Source of the DNA: Cerasicoccus sp. TK19100
Lineage (GTDB): Bacteria > Verrucomicrobiota > Verrucomicrobiia > Opitutales > Cerasicoccaceae
Assembly: GCF_027257155.1 (NCBI RefSeq)
Contig: NZ_JAPWDU010000006.1
Location: 186,001-250,000 of the forward strand
Direction: 5' to 3'
Length of the DNA: 64,000 bases
Shown here: positions 24,301-30,912 of the stretch, one piece after another
Numbering within the stretch: the first letter of the stretch is position 1
How the letters are laid out: each line of letters opens with the position of its first letter
Notes under the pieces: model-generated
Seen by the model: the letters and a program-made list of their open reading frames with translations, nothing else
The model's database searches: none
What the model was told of the DNA's origin: nothing
Program-made: the position numbers and the translations under genes

Positions 24301-25002
24301 CTACTTGGACAGTTCGTCCAAGGTGGGAAGGTCGTCCCCGAGCTGGATGTCCCATTCGTCGATCTCTTCGCCTTCGGCGGGCGGGCCTGCCTTGCTGGAA
24401 GTTTCGAGAATGTAGGTGTTCAGCTCCTTATCGAGAATGTTTTCCGCCCAGTAGCCGTTCTGCAGCTCGTAGTCGTCTGGCTCGTAGCCGTACTTTTCGA
24501 GGGTGGCCAGGATAACGGATGAATCCGGGGTGCCGCCGTGGTCGGAGATCAGGCCCTTTTCGCGGTGGACGCGCACGCACTCATGGATGATGAATGGTGG
24601 CAGCTTTTCCTGATAGCTTGGGTGAACCTTGTGGCTGCCAGCCCACTTTGCCCAGGCGTCACGGTCGATGGATCGCTGAGTCTGGGTAAGGGCTTCGTAA
24701 TAATATACGCGGCGCTTGGAAAGCTTGGTCACCAAGGCGATCAGAGACATGCCGTCTTGTTCGATTTCGAGCCAGTCGAGCGGGCGCGGCTTTTCGATCG
24801 GATCGCGGGATCTGGAAATATCTTCGGGTGCTTCGAGGAATTGAACGCCGAGCGCTCGGGAGAACTTCACGGTTGTTTCACCGTCCTTCTGGAGGGTGAC
24901 TTTACCCTTGTTGATTAGGTCTTCGTGAAACTTCCGCGCATCTTCCGGGGACTCCGCCCAGATGTAGTTGGTGATGCGGGTAACAACCTTGAATTTTCTC
25001 AT
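24301..25002 (-). CDS. soluble protein of unknown function
   Basis: A 233-residue mixed-charge soluble protein. Its opening, KFKVVTRITNYIWAESPEDARKFHEDL, looks like a small strand-helix module (residues 1-40), followed by a linker and a region rich in aromatic residues. The C-terminus is acidic. No family is recognised. It has its own strong terminator and a 408-base upstream gap, so it is probably monocistronic. Confidence 0.65.
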   Translation of the reverse strand: MRKFKVVTRITNYIWAESPEDARKFHEDLINKGKVTLQKDGETTVKFSRALGVQFLEAPEDISRSRDPIEKPRPLDWLEIEQDGMSLIALVTKLSKRRVYYYEALTQTQRSIDRDAWAKWAGSHKVHPSYQEKLPPFIIHECVRVHREKGLISDHGGTPDSSVILATLEKYGYEPDDYELQNGYWAENILDKELNTYILETSSKAGPPAEGEEIDEWDIQLGDDLPTLDELSK

Positions 25003-25410
25003 GTCTGATTCCTGTAGAGATTATTGTGAATGGCGCCCGAATAATATAGGGTTTATGGGCTGTTTTAATACGCTATTCGACGAACATTAAGTACGTGAAA
25101 AGCCAAGTTCAACCCTAAATTGGCAGATTGGCAAGGCTTGATCAATCCAGCTGGTGTGGTGGTCATCGATGTTTAGCCAGCCAATCGCACCCCACCACTG
25201 ATCAGGGCCCATTTTAAGACCCTGAATTCACCCTAGTTTTAGTTATGTGACAACCAACGGCTTGACTTGCCAGCGAATGTGTCGATAAGACCCACTTGGA
25301 ACGGCTAACTGCCGGGCTGCTCGATATCTAGCATTTTGACGGTGAAAAGCTTGCATTCATCGTCGCATGTCATTTCGATTGCGAATCACCCGTTCAACTC
25401 CTCTCTTTCT
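25003..25410. promoter_or_regulatory. divergent intergenic region upstream of the ParA-like operon
   Basis: No gene is visible in this 408-base gap. One possible plus-strand promoter is TTGACT (25262-25267), 16 bases, then GATAAG (25284-25289), reading toward the ParA-like gene. The rest has no evident repeat or RNA fold. Confidence 0.35.
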
Positions 25411-26301
25411 ATGCCACGTAAAATTTGTTTCCTGAACTATAAAGGCGGGGTGGGCAAAACATCGCTCATCGTTAACACCGCTGCCTGCCTGGCGCACAAG
25501 GGTAAACGCGTTCTTCTATTTGATTTTGATACTCAGTCGAATGCCAGCATCTGGTTGATGCGCCTCGACCGGTGGAACAAGTTGAACATCAACGGTGCCG
25601 GCTCGATTTACTCCGTGTTTGAGCCCGCCCAGAGCACGATCAAAGACATCGTCGTTAAGGACGTGGTGCAGAGCAAAACGGGTGAAAAAGTTTTGCCGGG
25701 CTTGGATATTGTGCCGACCACCTTCAACCTCGTCGACTTGGAAAATGAGTTCAAGGGGGATCCACAACAGCCGCACTACAAGATCATTAACGATCAGCTG
25801 TCGGAGATCGAAGATGACTACGATTACGTCGTTTTTGACTGCCCGCCGAACATCCTCAATGCTTCGCAATGCGGTGTGTTCACGAGCTCGGAAATCTACG
25901 TTCCGTCCAACCCGGACGCCCTCAGTTTGATCGGTTTTACGCTGCTCGTTGAAAAATTACTTCTTTTTCACAAGCGTTCTGCGAGCTTCCGCACGTCGGG
26001 CATGGCTCCGCCAGCTGCCGTTCGCGGCATCATCTTCAATTCGATTAAGGCCAACGTGGACATCGAGGTTCCGAAGATGCGTATGCAGCTGCGTATGAAC
26101 CAGTTCCGCAATCAGCGCCGCGTGTCTCAAGACGCAAAAATCTTTGAATCGATGATCCGCGACGCCACGGTTGTTCGCCGTGCGGTGACTTTGGGTCTGC
26201 CGGTTAGCCTGGTTGGCCAGGCCGCTCAGGAGGAAGATAGCGTCGTTAAGGACTATGCACGCCTCGCTGCGGAGATTGACCGCCACGCCATTTCTTGGTA
26301 A
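25411..26301 (+). CDS. ParA/Soj-like partition ATPase
   Basis: A 296-residue deviant-Walker ATPase of the ParA/MinD superfamily. Walker A' is KGGVGKT at residues 11-17, the A' region LLFDFDTQSN follows, and Walker B is YVVFDCPPN. ParA proteins move cargo (plasmids, chromosomes, protein clusters) over the nucleoid by ATP-controlled DNA binding. The ATG at 25411 is preferred over a TTG 75 bases upstream because it puts the P-loop near the N-terminus as usual. No ParB gene or parS-like site is adjacent. The next two genes, an unknown protein and a coiled-coil protein, follow at 40- and 20-base spacings and are likely partners. Confidence 0.9.
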   Translation: MPRKICFLNYKGGVGKTSLIVNTAACLAHKGKRVLLFDFDTQSNASIWLMRLDRWNKLNINGAGSIYSVFEPAQSTIKDIVVKDVVQSKTGEKVLPGLDIVPTTFNLVDLENEFKGDPQQPHYKIINDQLSEIEDDYDYVVFDCPPNILNASQCGVFTSSEIYVPSNPDALSLIGFTLLVEKLLLFHKRSASFRTSGMAPPAAVRGIIFNSIKANVDIEVPKMRMQLRMNQFRNQRRVSQDAKIFESMIRDATVVRRAVTLGLPVSLVGQAAQEEDSVVKDYARLAAEIDRHAISW

Positions 26302-26341
26302 CGCTTGCAAACTTAGTTTAAGACGGGATAGTTAGGAGAAT

Positions 26342-27319
26342 ATGTCTGAAGAATCGCCAACGCTTCGATACAACAAAGATGACTGGGATGAAATTCGCTT
26401 GGCGTTCGCCACTTCGCTGATGGTGGACACCGGCCTGTTGAGTCTCTCCCAGAATTTGGAAATCGAGGAATGGCCGATCAAGGGCTCCGGCGAAACTCCG
26501 TCTAAGTATATCGACTTCACCTGGGAAGAACTTCAGGAGCTCCCTGGCTTGGCTGATAAGCCTGCCCGTATCGATTTGCTCATCCACATCCTGCGCGAAA
26601 CGCAGGCTTTCGATGACCCGTTCGGCGATATGGTGGCTACGGTGGATGCCCATGCGAGCGTTGACCGCACGCTGGAGAAAAATATCAACCGTCTGAAGAT
26701 CCCGGAAGACTTCCCGATGGCCCTCAGTGGCTTGTCCGCGGACACGCTTTCCTTCTGCCAGAATGAGGATATCAAGACGCTGAAGGACTTTGGCCATTTT
26801 GCGCAAAACATGGCGCAAAACATCGTCATCGGTGGTGACTTCCGTGCGCTGCTCAACTCGCTGAGCACCGAGGACCAGCAGACCTTGGCCAAGTATGTTC
26901 CTTTCCGCCCGGGCAGCCTCGGCCTGCATTTGCCAGAGTGTATCGGCCTGTTGCTCAACCAGCTGAGCGAGGTGGAAAAGTGCTCCTTGCTCAAGAAATT
27001 CGGCTACGACCGGATGACGGACAACATGGAGGCCAAGGCCCGCCTCAGCAAGGAGCAGGTCAGCCAATTGGAAGACATTCTCCAGAGCAAGCTGAAGGAA
27101 ATCTGCGATTACTTCCCGGAACAGTACAAGCAGCTCGCGATGGACATCAAGGGCGGCAAAACACTGGAACGCATCTTTATGGTGGTGGACGAGCCGGAGC
27201 GCGAGTGCATCTGCGCGAATATCACCCAACGCTACTTGAAGGAAAACGCTATCGCTGACTTGCCGGAACCCGAAACTGCGAAAAAGCGAGGCTTCTTCTC
27301 GCGACTATTTGGACGTTAA
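26342..27319 (+). CDS. unknown helical protein in the ParA-like operon
   Basis: A 325-residue, mostly helical soluble protein preceded by a good ribosome binding site (AGGAG). No family is recognised. The middle (about residues 130-170) contains a hairpin-like ALSGLSADTLSFCQNEDIKTL element. The last 12 residues, KKRGFFSRLFGR, form a basic amphipathic tail of the kind that anchors proteins to membranes or binds a partner. Being between a ParA-like ATPase and a coiled-coil protein, it could be the cargo adaptor or ATPase regulator; that is inference. Confidence 0.7.
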   Translation: MSEESPTLRYNKDDWDEIRLAFATSLMVDTGLLSLSQNLEIEEWPIKGSGETPSKYIDFTWEELQELPGLADKPARIDLLIHILRETQAFDDPFGDMVATVDAHASVDRTLEKNINRLKIPEDFPMALSGLSADTLSFCQNEDIKTLKDFGHFAQNMAQNIVIGGDFRALLNSLSTEDQQTLAKYVPFRPGSLGLHLPECIGLLLNQLSEVEKCSLLKKFGYDRMTDNMEAKARLSKEQVSQLEDILQSKLKEICDYFPEQYKQLAMDIKGGKTLERIFMVVDEPERECICANITQRYLKENAIADLPEPETAKKRGFFSRLFGR

Positions 27320-27339
27320 TTTCAGAGAGCCGCTAAGGC

Positions 27340-27948
27340 ATGACCGCACCCAAACCACCGCAGAAAAAACGCGTAATCAGTCTCAGACCGAAACTGCAGC
27401 AAGCCGCAGAAGCTTCGCTGAAATCTAAGGAAACGATTGACCTCATCATGCGCCGCACGCGCGCGCCTTTCGATGAGCATGATCACATGGCCAAAGCGGA
27501 AATCGATTCGCTGGAGAAAAGTCTGCGCAAGCTGGAAGCTGATCTTCTGGAGCGCGAGCGCAATGCCGCCGACTACGAAGCCAAGCTTGCCGAACGCGAA
27601 CGCGATATCTGGGAAGGCGAAGCCCTCATCAAGGTGAAGCAGGAAATGCTTGCCGCCAAGATGAGCGAATTTCAAAAAGCCAAGGCCGAGGCCGGCGACG
27701 AAAATAGCGACAATGGCTCAATGTCCAGCGAGGAGCGCCAGGCCCTGGAGCACTTACGCGAAACCCTCGACCAGCGGGAGCAGGCCATCAAGGAGGCGAA
27801 AGAGCAGCTCAAGGAGCGCGAAGCCTTCATTGAGGAATCCGAAAATGCGCTCTTCGAAAAGATGATGGAGCAGCAGGAAAAAGAGACCGAGATCGAGCAA
27901 CGCATGGAGGAGCTCCAGAAGCTCGAAGCCAAGCTGAAGCAGGGTTAG
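27340..27948 (+). CDS. coiled-coil protein in the ParA-like operon
   Basis: A 202-residue protein that is almost wholly coiled coil. A basic N-terminus (residues 1-30, KKRVISLRPKL) precedes one heptad-rich segment (about 48-120), an acidic Gly/Asn/Ser break (about 122-130) and a second segment (about 131-200) of Glu, Lys, Gln and Leu. It starts 20 bases after the 325-residue gene and ends in a strong terminator, completing a three-gene unit. A scaffold or filament role with the ParA-like ATPase is plausible but unproven. Confidence 0.7.
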   Translation: MTAPKPPQKKRVISLRPKLQQAAEASLKSKETIDLIMRRTRAPFDEHDHMAKAEIDSLEKSLRKLEADLLERERNAADYEAKLAERERDIWEGEALIKVKQEMLAAKMSEFQKAKAEAGDENSDNGSMSSEERQALEHLRETLDQREQAIKEAKEQLKEREAFIEESENALFEKMMEQQEKETEIEQRMEELQKLEAKLKQG

Positions 27949-27964
27949 CCGCGCCAGTTTACTC

Positions 27965-27995
27965 GATGTAACGCCGGTTTGCGTTACATCTTTTT
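27965..27995 (+). terminator. terminator of the ParA-like operon
   Basis: A perfect 10-bp stem (GATGTAACGC, GCGTTACATC) with a 6-base loop is followed by TTTTT, a textbook intrinsic terminator. Confidence 0.9.
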
Positions 27996-28042
27996 GTCGC
28001 TCGTGCTGAACTATATCTCGCTTGTTCTCATCGCCAGACCAT

Positions 28043-28080
28043 AGAAAAAGCGCAGGGCATCTCGCCACTGCGCTTTTGAA
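28043..28080 (-). terminator. terminator facing gadB
   Basis: A 10-bp stem (AAAAGCGCAG at 28046-28055, CTGCGCTTTT at 28068-28077) with a 12-base loop. The minus-strand reading ends in TTTTTC, so it suits the 3' end of gadB. The plus-strand reading also has T residues. Confidence 0.7.
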
Positions 28081-28157
28081 TGTTCGCGACTCATTTGCGC
28101 ACTGCGCAAATCTATCGATCCAGGCTTCGACAGGCTCAGCCCATGCGGCGCGCTGCG

Positions 28158-29555
28158 CTAGCAGACGCGGCCTTTGGTGCGGGACTCGGCGGTGAGCTTT
28201 TCGTAGTCGACGGCGTCTTCATTGAGCTTTGCGATACAAAGCTTCATGTCCTCGGCGAACTTCTCGGCCATGTCGCGGGAGAAGTTTTCCTTCACCACCA
28301 TGCGGAGCACGTGGACGCTGTCGGCGTCGGCAGGCAGGGAGTAGGCGGGGACAATCCAGCCGTATTGGCGCAGCAGGTCGCTAAGCAGATAAATGATCTT
28401 GTTGTCGGCGTCGTGGTCCTTGAGGCGCACGGTGACGGTCGGCAAATACTTGGACTCGTTGAGCAGCTCGAAAACGCCGAGCTCCATCAGCTTGCCTTCG
28501 AGGAATTGCGCGTTGTCCATGATGTTCTTCATGATCTTGCGGTAGCCATCCTTGCCGAGGCGGAGGAAGTTGTAGTACTGCAGGAGCACCATGGAGGAGG
28601 CGCGGGAGAAGTTGAGGCTGTAGTTGGGCATGTTGCCACCAAGGTAGGTGATGTTGAACACCAACTCCTCCGGCAGATCACTGCGGTCGCGGAAGACGAC
28701 GGTGCCGATGCCCGGGTAAACGAGGCCAAACTTGTGGTTGGAAATGTTGACCGACTTGACGTGCTCCAGGCGGAAGTCCCACTCGACATCCGGGTAGACA
28801 AAGGGTGCCACGAAGCCGCCGCTGGCACCGTCGCAATGGATCGGAATGTCCCAACCCTTTTCGGCTTTCAGTTTCTTCAGGTAGTCGTTGATGCCGCGCA
28901 CGTCGTCGAGCTGGCCGGTGAAGGTGGTGCCGATCACGCAGCCCACGGCGACGGTGTTTTCATCGACATAGCCGTCGAGCTGGTCGGCGGTCATGTAGAA
29001 CTGGTCCTTCTTCAGCGGCACCACGCGCATCTCGACATCGAAATAGAGTGCAAACTTTTCCCAGCAAGTGTGGACATCGGCGGAGAAGACGACGTTAGGC
29101 TTGTCGATGGAAAGACCGGCGGCCTGGCGACGCTTTTTCCAACTCCATTTGTGGGCGAGCAGGCCGAGCATAATCGCCTCGGAGGAGCCAACGGTGCAGG
29201 TGCCAACGGGGTCGCAGTCCTTGGGCGCATTGAGCATGCGGCCCATCATGCTGACGACGCGCTGGTGAATCTCCTCGGTTTGCGGATACTCATCCTGGTC
29301 GACGAGGTTCTTGTTGGCGGAAATTTTCAGTAGCTCGTCAGCCTCGGGCTCCATCCAGGTCGTCACAAAGCTGGCGAGGTTTAGCGCCGGGTTGCCGTCG
29401 AGATTGAGCTCGTCCTTGATCACCTGAAAGGCGACCCGGGCGTCCATGCCGTTTTCAGGTATCTCGTATTTCGAGACTGTTTCGTCCATATGCCGATCGG
29501 CATAGGTGAAGTTAAGGGGTTCGTTATGCTCTTCGAGATGCTTGACCTGTTTCAT
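28158..29555 (-). CDS. gadB: glutamate decarboxylase
   Basis: A 465-residue PLP-dependent group II decarboxylase that turns glutamate into GABA and consumes a cytoplasmic proton, giving acid tolerance. The length equals that of E. coli GadB. Recognisable are the substrate-loop region TCTVGSSEAIMLG, the cofactor-binding HCDGASGGFVAPF (about residues 235-247), and SNHKFGLVYPG with the Schiff-base Lys at about 273. The N-terminus is the oligomerisation segment. No glutamate/GABA antiporter gene is in the window, so the acid system would need a transporter elsewhere. Confidence 0.95.
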   Translation of the reverse strand: MKQVKHLEEHNEPLNFTYADRHMDETVSKYEIPENGMDARVAFQVIKDELNLDGNPALNLASFVTTWMEPEADELLKISANKNLVDQDEYPQTEEIHQRVVSMMGRMLNAPKDCDPVGTCTVGSSEAIMLGLLAHKWSWKKRRQAAGLSIDKPNVVFSADVHTCWEKFALYFDVEMRVVPLKKDQFYMTADQLDGYVDENTVAVGCVIGTTFTGQLDDVRGINDYLKKLKAEKGWDIPIHCDGASGGFVAPFVYPDVEWDFRLEHVKSVNISNHKFGLVYPGIGTVVFRDRSDLPEELVFNITYLGGNMPNYSLNFSRASSMVLLQYYNFLRLGKDGYRKIMKNIMDNAQFLEGKLMELGVFELLNESKYLPTVTVRLKDHDADNKIIYLLSDLLRQYGWIVPAYSLPADADSVHVLRMVVKENFSRDMAEKFAEDMKLCIAKLNEDAVDYEKLTAESRTKGRVC

Positions 29556-29580
29556 AGTAGTTATATAGGGTGTTTCCTAG

Positions 29581-30912
29581 ATGGGGGGCAACGGTGAATT
29601 AGTTCGTAACGAAATCATAACGCTGCGTCGTCGTTGCCGGTGGTTGTCTGTGATGATTGCTGCGATGGTGCCGCTTGCCAACGCTAAAACCGAAAATGAC
29701 CCTCCGCTGACCAGCGATGCCAGCGCCTTCGATGAATGGCTTGCCGGTGATTACATGCTGGACGCCCATGGCTGGCGCGACGAGTTCGCGAAAGAGACAG
29801 GTGTCAGCTTTATCGGTAATTACTACGTCGATGTACTGGGGAATCCAGTGGGCGGTCAAAACCAGGCGCTGCGTTACTCAACGCTGGGTTCGTTTGGGTT
29901 GGAAGTCGACCTCGGTGTGGCGACGGGGTGGGAGTCTTTGGAGCATTGGAGTTTTACCGCGCTCGGTTACAACGCGGAAGGCAAAAACCTGGCCAATGAC
30001 ATTGGCAACGCCGTGCAGCCTTCGACGCTCTTTAGTGGTGTGGTGCCGGTGGGTTTGTCGCAGCTGTATTTTCAATACGAGACCGATGACTTTACGGGCA
30101 AAGTCGGCCGCCTGACGCCTGAGCAATACTACGGCTCCAGCCCTTTGTGGGATTACTTTGTCAGCCTTGCCTTCAATGATAATCCGTGGAATTTGAGCGC
30201 GAGTAACCCGAACTTTTCCGGTTTCCCGGGGGCGGTCTGGATGGCCACCGGCTCGTATCAAATCGATGAAAAGTGGAACGTCTCGCTGGGCTTCGCCAAC
30301 ACGTCGGAGCTGGACATCACGGCACCCTTTGAGCGCGGTGTGAACTTCGATTTCGACCCGGCAAAAGGGGCGATGTTTATGGCCGAAATCCGCTACAACT
30401 GGCAGGCCGAGCTGTTCCATCCGCAGCCACTACCGGGGCACGTGAAGGTGGGTGGCTATTATGACACGGCTTCGGTGCCGCGCGTGGTCGCGCCGCCGCC
30501 CGGCGGGTCTCCGCTGGATGACGGCATAGGCGCGGCGTGGGTGATTATCGAGCAGCAGTTTATTCCCGGAAAAACGGATGACGATACCGGCCTGACGGGG
30601 TGGGCGGCGGCTAGCTGGACCGGGCCGGACAGCGTGGCGGTGTCGCCTTGGTTTTATTCGCTGGGCTTTGTGTATGAGGGCATCTTGCCGGGTCGGCCGG
30701 AAGACGCGCTGGCCATCGGCTGTGGCGTCGCCTACATGAATGACCAGCTGGCGGGTCAAAACCACGAGACCAATATCGAGCTGACTTACATGTTTCAAGT
30801 CACTCCGTGGCTCACCGTCCAGCCGGACCTGCAAATTATCCTCGATCCACTGGGTTATAACAACATCGACGACGCCCTGGTCCTCGGCTTCCAGTGCGGG
30901 GTGACTTTCTAG
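29581..30912 (+). CDS. OprB-type carbohydrate-selective porin
   Basis: A 443-residue outer membrane beta-barrel protein. A basic start and hydrophobic stretch ending in PLANA form the signal peptide; the true start may be an ATG near 29653. The mature region follows the OprB plan: EWLAGDYMLDAHGWRDEFAKETG, then DVLGNPVGGQ, and the distinctive barrel segments NDPWNL-like (DNPWNLSASNPNF) and GFPGAVW. It ends in aromatic strand residues (GVTF), as outer membrane proteins do. OprB porins admit sugars. It is divergent from gadB with 25 bases between, so promoters overlap. Confidence 0.82.
   Translation: MGGNGELVRNEIITLRRRCRWLSVMIAAMVPLANAKTENDPPLTSDASAFDEWLAGDYMLDAHGWRDEFAKETGVSFIGNYYVDVLGNPVGGQNQALRYSTLGSFGLEVDLGVATGWESLEHWSFTALGYNAEGKNLANDIGNAVQPSTLFSGVVPVGLSQLYFQYETDDFTGKVGRLTPEQYYGSSPLWDYFVSLAFNDNPWNLSASNPNFSGFPGAVWMATGSYQIDEKWNVSLGFANTSELDITAPFERGVNFDFDPAKGAMFMAEIRYNWQAELFHPQPLPGHVKVGGYYDTASVPRVVAPPPGGSPLDDGIGAAWVIIEQQFIPGKTDDDTGLTGWAAASWTGPDSVAVSPWFYSLGFVYEGILPGRPEDALAIGCGVAYMNDQLAGQNHETNIELTYMFQVTPWLTVQPDLQIILDPLGYNNIDDALVLGFQCGVTF

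Follow-up and report, generated by a model that had tools for sequence, protein, structure and literature searches.

Organization of the locus

The window analyzed here is a stretch of 64,000 nt from a Cerasicoccus genome, and all coordinates of the unit are given in its numbering. Three genes, all on the plus strand, fill positions 25411-27948. They encode a ParA-family ATPase (P1, 25411-26301), an all-helical protein (P2, 26342-27319), and a coiled-coil protein (P3, 27340-27948). The preliminary description of this DNA had proposed a three-gene unit bounded by terminators, and the unit itself is real. At the 3' end the boundary is borne out by an intrinsic terminator on the plus strand (27965-27990), a 10-pair stem followed by TTTTT with a stability of -14.8 kcal/mol (z -4.5) that none of 200 shuffled sequences equaled. 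The call rests on the strength of this one hairpin, since the terminator pattern scan as a whole returned 4 sites against 5.1 in shuffles and therefore showed no excess. Upstream the claim does not stand, as that side is occupied by a divergent gene of the same system on the minus strand (c3, 24301-25002), a fourth part that had been overlooked. Rfam gave no match in 24900-28100, and a PADLOC search of the operon returned weak matches only, of the ParA P-loop and coiled-coil kind.

Among Cerasicoccus species, dN/dS could be computed for 8 of 12 comparisons and lies at 0.02-0.04, with dS high or saturated; the remaining four, which compared P2 and P3 with two species, had saturated dS. The low ratios show that the genes of the operon are real and under purifying selection. 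No description of the operon was found in the open-licence PMC literature among the matches listed, and the portion of PMC5147048 that was consulted held nothing on Min or on a ParA linked to P2. The locus looks like a conserved ParA operon, apparently undescribed, that is related to known ParA positioning systems.

The ParA-family ATPase

P1 has 296 aa and matches AAA_31 with an E value of 1.7e-35 and 123 bits, against a cut-off of 27. Throughout an alignment of 43 sequences it keeps the NYKGGVGKT Walker A motif with its signature lysine, the Walker-B-like stretch FDCPPN, and, in its C-terminal half, a series of basic residues. The deviant Walker A with signature lysine, together with Walker B, is what defines the ParA/MinD superfamily, and P1 carries both. 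K11 and K16 of the KGGVGKT motif are basic in all 40 homologues covering them, and at K213, K222, R224, R228, R233, R250, R256, and R257 at least 41 of the 42 homologues have a basic residue. By eye the protein ends in AEIDRHAISW, and there is no MinD-type membrane-targeting sequence on the ATPase. P1 shares 97% identity with its counterpart in C. maritimus.

P1 had been called an orphan ParA, with neither ParB nor parS. This holds, in that no ParB family match is found among P1, P2, and P3, and no parS-like site occurs in the 64-kb window with up to 3 mismatches allowed. The best PDB sequence matches of P1 are Soj proteins (E 4e-14). The idea that P1 is itself a plain chromosomal Soj, raised in the preliminary description as the finding that would count against it, was looked at and can be ruled out. 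The host genome has a separate 262-residue Soj (L139), a ParB (L141), and two parS sites, all of them off the window's contig, and P1 belongs to a clade of its own. In a tree of 54 ParA proteins, whose bootstrap had yet to converge fully and which contains several long-branched rows, the ParA of the trio forms a clade of 41 rows with a support of 97/99; the tree excludes L064, L074, and L076, in which Walker A is incomplete. All but one of the 41 clade members adjoin P2, and the exception (L135) comes from G179, a genome that has P2 elsewhere. Nearest to this clade in the tree lie ParA proteins of the same order without P2 (L129-L132).

The helical partner and its C-terminal tail

P2 (325 aa, plus strand) is modeled by AlphaFold2 as helices only, with a pLDDT of 87.1 and a pTM of 0.62. 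It belongs to no Pfam or NCBIfam family over the curated cut-off, neither of these collections recognizes a DNA-binding domain in it, PHROGs and PADLOC gave no match at E 0.1, and Foldseek found nothing at E <= 0.001 in PDB or BFVD. The best Foldseek candidates for its fold, at E 1.6 in the PDB and 0.68 in the viral library, were discarded as too weak, and the best VIA-align comparison, with FliG (Z 3.5 over 63 residues), was treated as noise. Among the P2 homologues, 6 of 42 matched T2SSF at E values no higher than 1 (best 9.4e-4), which was weak and was not used; partial matches of the homologues to twelve further Pfam families were scattered, and none exceeded the cut-off where scores were shown.

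The C-terminus of P2 in the window reads KKRGFFSRLFGR. Its tail, AKKRGFFSRLFGR (27278-27316, plus strand), is a putative membrane-targeting sequence on account of its likeness to MinD. The membrane-targeting tag of E. coli MinD is KGFLKRLFGG (PMC5471200, in excerpt), and the tail is identical to it at 6 of 10 positions, a match attained by 0.35% of 2000 shuffles. At least 6 of 10 MinD identities are found within the last 20 residues of 16 of the 46 P2 proteins, whereas none of the 525 other proteins encoded at these loci reaches that number. A less strict rule, calling for no acidic, at least two basic, and at least four hydrophobic residues among the last 14, is satisfied by 30/46 P2 proteins against 44/525 in the background; several of the 16 P2 proteins that fail it still end in KK.GFF.RLFG. 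The tail had been described beforehand as basic and amphipathic. It is indeed basic and conserved, but in the window's copy its hydrophobic moment is not above that of shuffles, so that amphipathicity by this measure is not significant, whereas the likeness to MinD is.

The coiled-coil protein

P3 (202 aa, plus strand) had been regarded as almost pure coiled coil, and that most of it is of this kind is confirmed by the heptad period of its hydrophobicity and by the complete absence of proline from residues 47-202. At a period of 3.5 residues the power is 60.4, against a shuffle mean of 9.3, and 0.25% of 2000 shuffles reach this value. Residues 1-43 (27340-27468, plus strand) form a basic N-terminal segment with a net charge of +8, which is a putative ParA-activating peptide; a basic N-terminal peptide is a feature of ParA activators in the parts consulted of PMC10241942 and PMC12204374. 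With charge counted over the segment aligned to residues 1-43, at most 60 residues long, the N-terminus is net positive in 32 of 32 homologues having that end, with a mean of +5.7, and the remainder of the protein has a mean of -14.3. Restricting the count to 43 residues gives a net positive charge in 31 of 32, the exception being L052. The P3 copies in L061 and L074 are without the N-terminus. There is no tryptophan near the C-terminal end of P3.

Distribution and conservation

P2 is found in 42 of 384 genomes of the class, and all 42 belong to one order. A profile made from these 42 sequences matched 26 of 230 genomes of the phylum, again all within the same order, and records named as C. 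maritimus and C. frondis contain a P2 with 90% identity. NCBI taxonomy places Cerasicoccus in Puniceicoccales, class Opitutia, and the order referred to in the genome searches is the GTDB order. We take this order to include Opitutaceae, in line with an Opitutaceae record (L009) that clusters with family f3 in the ParA tree. Wide stretches of sequence came from 34 of the 42 P2 genomes, with the window added for G000 and a C. arenae locus for what is apparently G271. For the six genomes outside this set (G064, G117, G155, G174, G266, and G290), match coordinates place ParA beside P2 in every case.

The presence of P2 was the basis on which the 46 loci compared here were selected, and five genomes contribute two or three each. 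A P1 homologue is present in 43 of them (L056, L062, and L075 are without it) and a P3 homologue in 34; of the 12 loci without a P3 match, 7 are not of the variant type described below. Wherever both genes occur they lie on one strand, P1-P2 in 43/43 loci with a median gap of 18 bp and P2-P3 in 34/34 with a median gap of 13 bp. The P1-P2 gap ranges from -829 to 679 bp, and the P2-P3 gap exceeds 200 bp solely in L061 and L074; these extremes come from overlong or broken reading frames. In G286 (L074), ParA and P2 contain stop codons and represent a decaying copy. The trio, whose conservation across Opitutia the preliminary description had proposed to check, is kept together across one order, but P3 is absent from 12/46 P2 loci. 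The possibility that relatives do not keep the genes together, which the preliminary description had set against its own proposal, was examined and does not hold. In the search of class genomes, P2 was absent from all listed genomes of the order smaller than 2.6 Mb and from several larger ones, and the system is thus dispensable in those genomes. Inheritance of the operon appears to be mostly vertical.

A fourth component and a kinase-linked variant

The divergent gene c3 (24301-25002, minus strand) encodes a protein of 233 aa that belongs to no known family. Homologues occur in 11 of 384 genomes of the class, and all 11 lie beside a ParA of the P1 type. The N-terminus is basic (MRKFKV-like) in 14/14 sequences, and an LPT.D end is conserved. 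In the structure model, of pLDDT only 66, a small beta barrel gave SH3/tudor-like matches that were weak (none at E <= 0.001), and the fold is too uncertain to name. A PHROGs family annotated as nuclease gave a match at E 0.002. On the best reading, c3 is a lineage-specific extra part of the ParA system.

The c3 gene is divergent in family f1; families f2 and f6 include five loci where it is co-directional (L055, L057, L059, L065, and L066). Here c3 follows a gene for a Ser/Thr protein kinase (Pkinase E 1.1e-30 in L055) and a gene for a multi-pass membrane protein. An upstream protein predicted to have 6 or 7 membrane segments is found in 5/5 of these variant loci; in L065 it is split over two open frames (1+5), and the L059 version is an unclustered sequence. 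None of the five loci has P3, and in four of them P2 is without the MinD-like tail, the P2 of L059 ending in a basic hydrophobic stretch. The five variant ParA proteins form one clade (support 100/99), and the exchange of tail for membrane protein was therefore a single event. As a speculation from sequence, the basic start of c3 could supply an activating peptide where P3 is missing.

Neighboring and related loci

Several further gene arrangements were noted around the operon and its relatives. A family of about 430 residues is encoded co-directionally downstream of P3 in 13 loci (for example L044:6077-7387), at less than 100 bp in 9 of the 13; its N-terminus is signal-peptide-like by eye, and none of the five members tested matched Pfam. 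At positions 28158-30912 of the window, a gene for a pyridoxal-dependent decarboxylase (Pfam E 5e-73; the enzyme may be a glutamate decarboxylase) and one for an OprB-type porin (E 1.6e-47) diverge from one another. The host genome has a third small ParA-like ATPase, of 249 aa (L140:5637-6386), directly after a 550-residue gene; a gene near it is presumably CYTH-like.

A sister group of ParA proteins, at 48% identity, lacks any P2 match (L129:7305-8917, L130:7514-9085, and L131:7106-8913). The divergent gene in these loci encodes a protein with LLDSYFK and then two or three further residues at its C-terminus in 3/3 cases, and no Pfam family was found over cut-off in the two tested. In other orders of the class, genes downstream of related ParA genes encode a small nuclease-like protein (L133:7270-9130, L134:422-2147, L137:7654-9631, and L138:6255-8275), possibly as a ParA-nuclease module. 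The nuclease-like protein matches NucS_C in L137 (E 3.4e-11); those of L133, L134, and L138 are similar by eye only and share an EIK motif. An extra small gene lies between the two in L133, L134, and L137.

Proposed function

We lean, with moderate confidence, toward a ParA/MinD-type positioning system that would link the nucleoid and the membrane and would have its own adaptor and activator. ATP-bound ParA dimers would bind the nucleoid through the conserved basic C-terminal half. P2 would be a folded, helical adaptor in contact with the inner membrane, or with cargo bound to the envelope, by way of its MinD-like tail, and P3 would be a coiled-coil scaffold whose basic N-terminus stimulates the ParA ATPase. 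By repeatedly releasing ParA, the P2/P3 complex could have the membrane-associated complex moved or held relative to the nucleoid. Nucleoid binding, membrane binding, ATPase stimulation, and movement are thus assigned by analogy, with that for the ParA and activator roles drawn from portions of PMC13170346, PMC10241942, and PMC12204374. P3 cannot be the activator everywhere, because 12/46 P2 loci lack it, including 7 that are not of the variant type. No cargo gene linked to the operon across the order was seen in the 46 loci, and P2 is not tied by fold or family to any known adaptor. The preliminary description had suggested either cargo positioning or cell polarity; by analogy positioning fits the architecture, but nothing points to polarity in particular.

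Other roles have to be weighed against such a positioning system. Placement of the division site, in which ParA, P2, and P3 would place or license the Z-ring in a Min- or Pom-like manner, seems unlikely. MinC was found in 0/70 genomes of the order, the window's included, by a search that was positive in 6/14 control genomes, and the layout of an ATPase, a coiled-coil protein with a basic N-terminus, and a second partner resembles PomZ/PomX/PomY (PMC13170346, in excerpt). P2 has no match in many genomes of the order, however, so the operon is not needed for division as such, and no division genes were seen beside it, which leaves such placement unsupported by linkage. We consider quite unlikely a bolder version, in which the operon would encode a nucleoid-membrane spatial regulator that carries its MinD tail on the helical adaptor P2 and places the division site without MinC, the kinase-linked sister being anchored by an integral membrane protein. 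Chromosome or plasmid partition with an unusual centromere-binding partner would suit the ParA family membership of P1 and the conserved basic residues, which fit nucleoid binding. It is made very unlikely by the separate Soj, ParB, and two parS sites of the host, by the lack of a recognized DNA-binding domain in P2, and by the absence of P2 matches from 72,556 plasmid and 50,697 phage records; a role in plasmid or phage partition was ruled out on this last count.

Dedicated cargoes fare worse on occurrence, and both microcompartments and flagella were ruled out as such. McdAB-like spacing of bacterial microcompartments (BMC) is highly improbable. BMC shell genes are present in the host genome and in 26/42 P2-positive genomes, and in G033 they lie about 23 kb from P2 on one contig, but 16/42 P2-positive genomes have no BMC match, 109/135 BMC-positive genomes of the class have no P2 match, and the host's BMC genes sit on a contig other than the window's. 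P3 also lacks the tryptophan near the C-terminus by which McdB is marked in the title of PMC11321042. Placement of flagella or chemotaxis arrays after the manner of FlhG/ParC is extremely improbable, with flagellin detected in 6 of 16 sampled genomes known to be P2-positive but without a match in the other 10, the window's own genome among them.

Many orphan ParA/MinD ATPases are without an identified partner (PMC10241942, in part). The orphan ParA of the positioning system favored here has two candidate partners, kept over several families of one order, and a natural variant has its supposed membrane anchor replaced, so that a division of roles among nucleoid anchor, membrane anchor, and activator could be tested in culturable Verrucomicrobiota. 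To our knowledge, the spatial organization of this phylum has been little studied.

Comparison with known systems

The operon shares features with several ParA/MinD systems and differs from each. Unlike FlhG, its occurrence is not tied to flagella, 10/16 P2-positive genomes being without a flagellin match. With ParABS (Soj/Spo0J) it has the ATPase family in common, the best PDB matches of P1 being Soj proteins, but the locus is without ParB or parS and P1 lies in a separate clade. McdAB likewise combines a ParA-type ATPase with a partner that has a basic N-terminus (PMC12204374, in excerpt); the present operon, in contrast, is not tied to microcompartments, its P3 is a long coiled coil, and it has a third, helical partner in P2. 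A MinD-like membrane tail is shared with MinCDE, but it is carried by the partner P2 rather than by the ATPase, and MinC is found in 0/70 genomes of the order.

PomX is a coiled-coil protein. In P3 the sequence features of the PomX type, a coiled coil and a basic N-terminus, are present, and an activating role is putative. In the PomXYZ system of Myxococcus xanthus, two partners accompany a ParA/MinD ATPase; one of them, PomX, works by means of a short N-terminal peptide that is basic, and it assembles into filaments (PMC13170346, in the part consulted). The likeness is one of layout. The two systems differ in that P2 combines a folded, helical structure with a tail resembling that of MinD, and in that the host of the operon belongs to another phylum.
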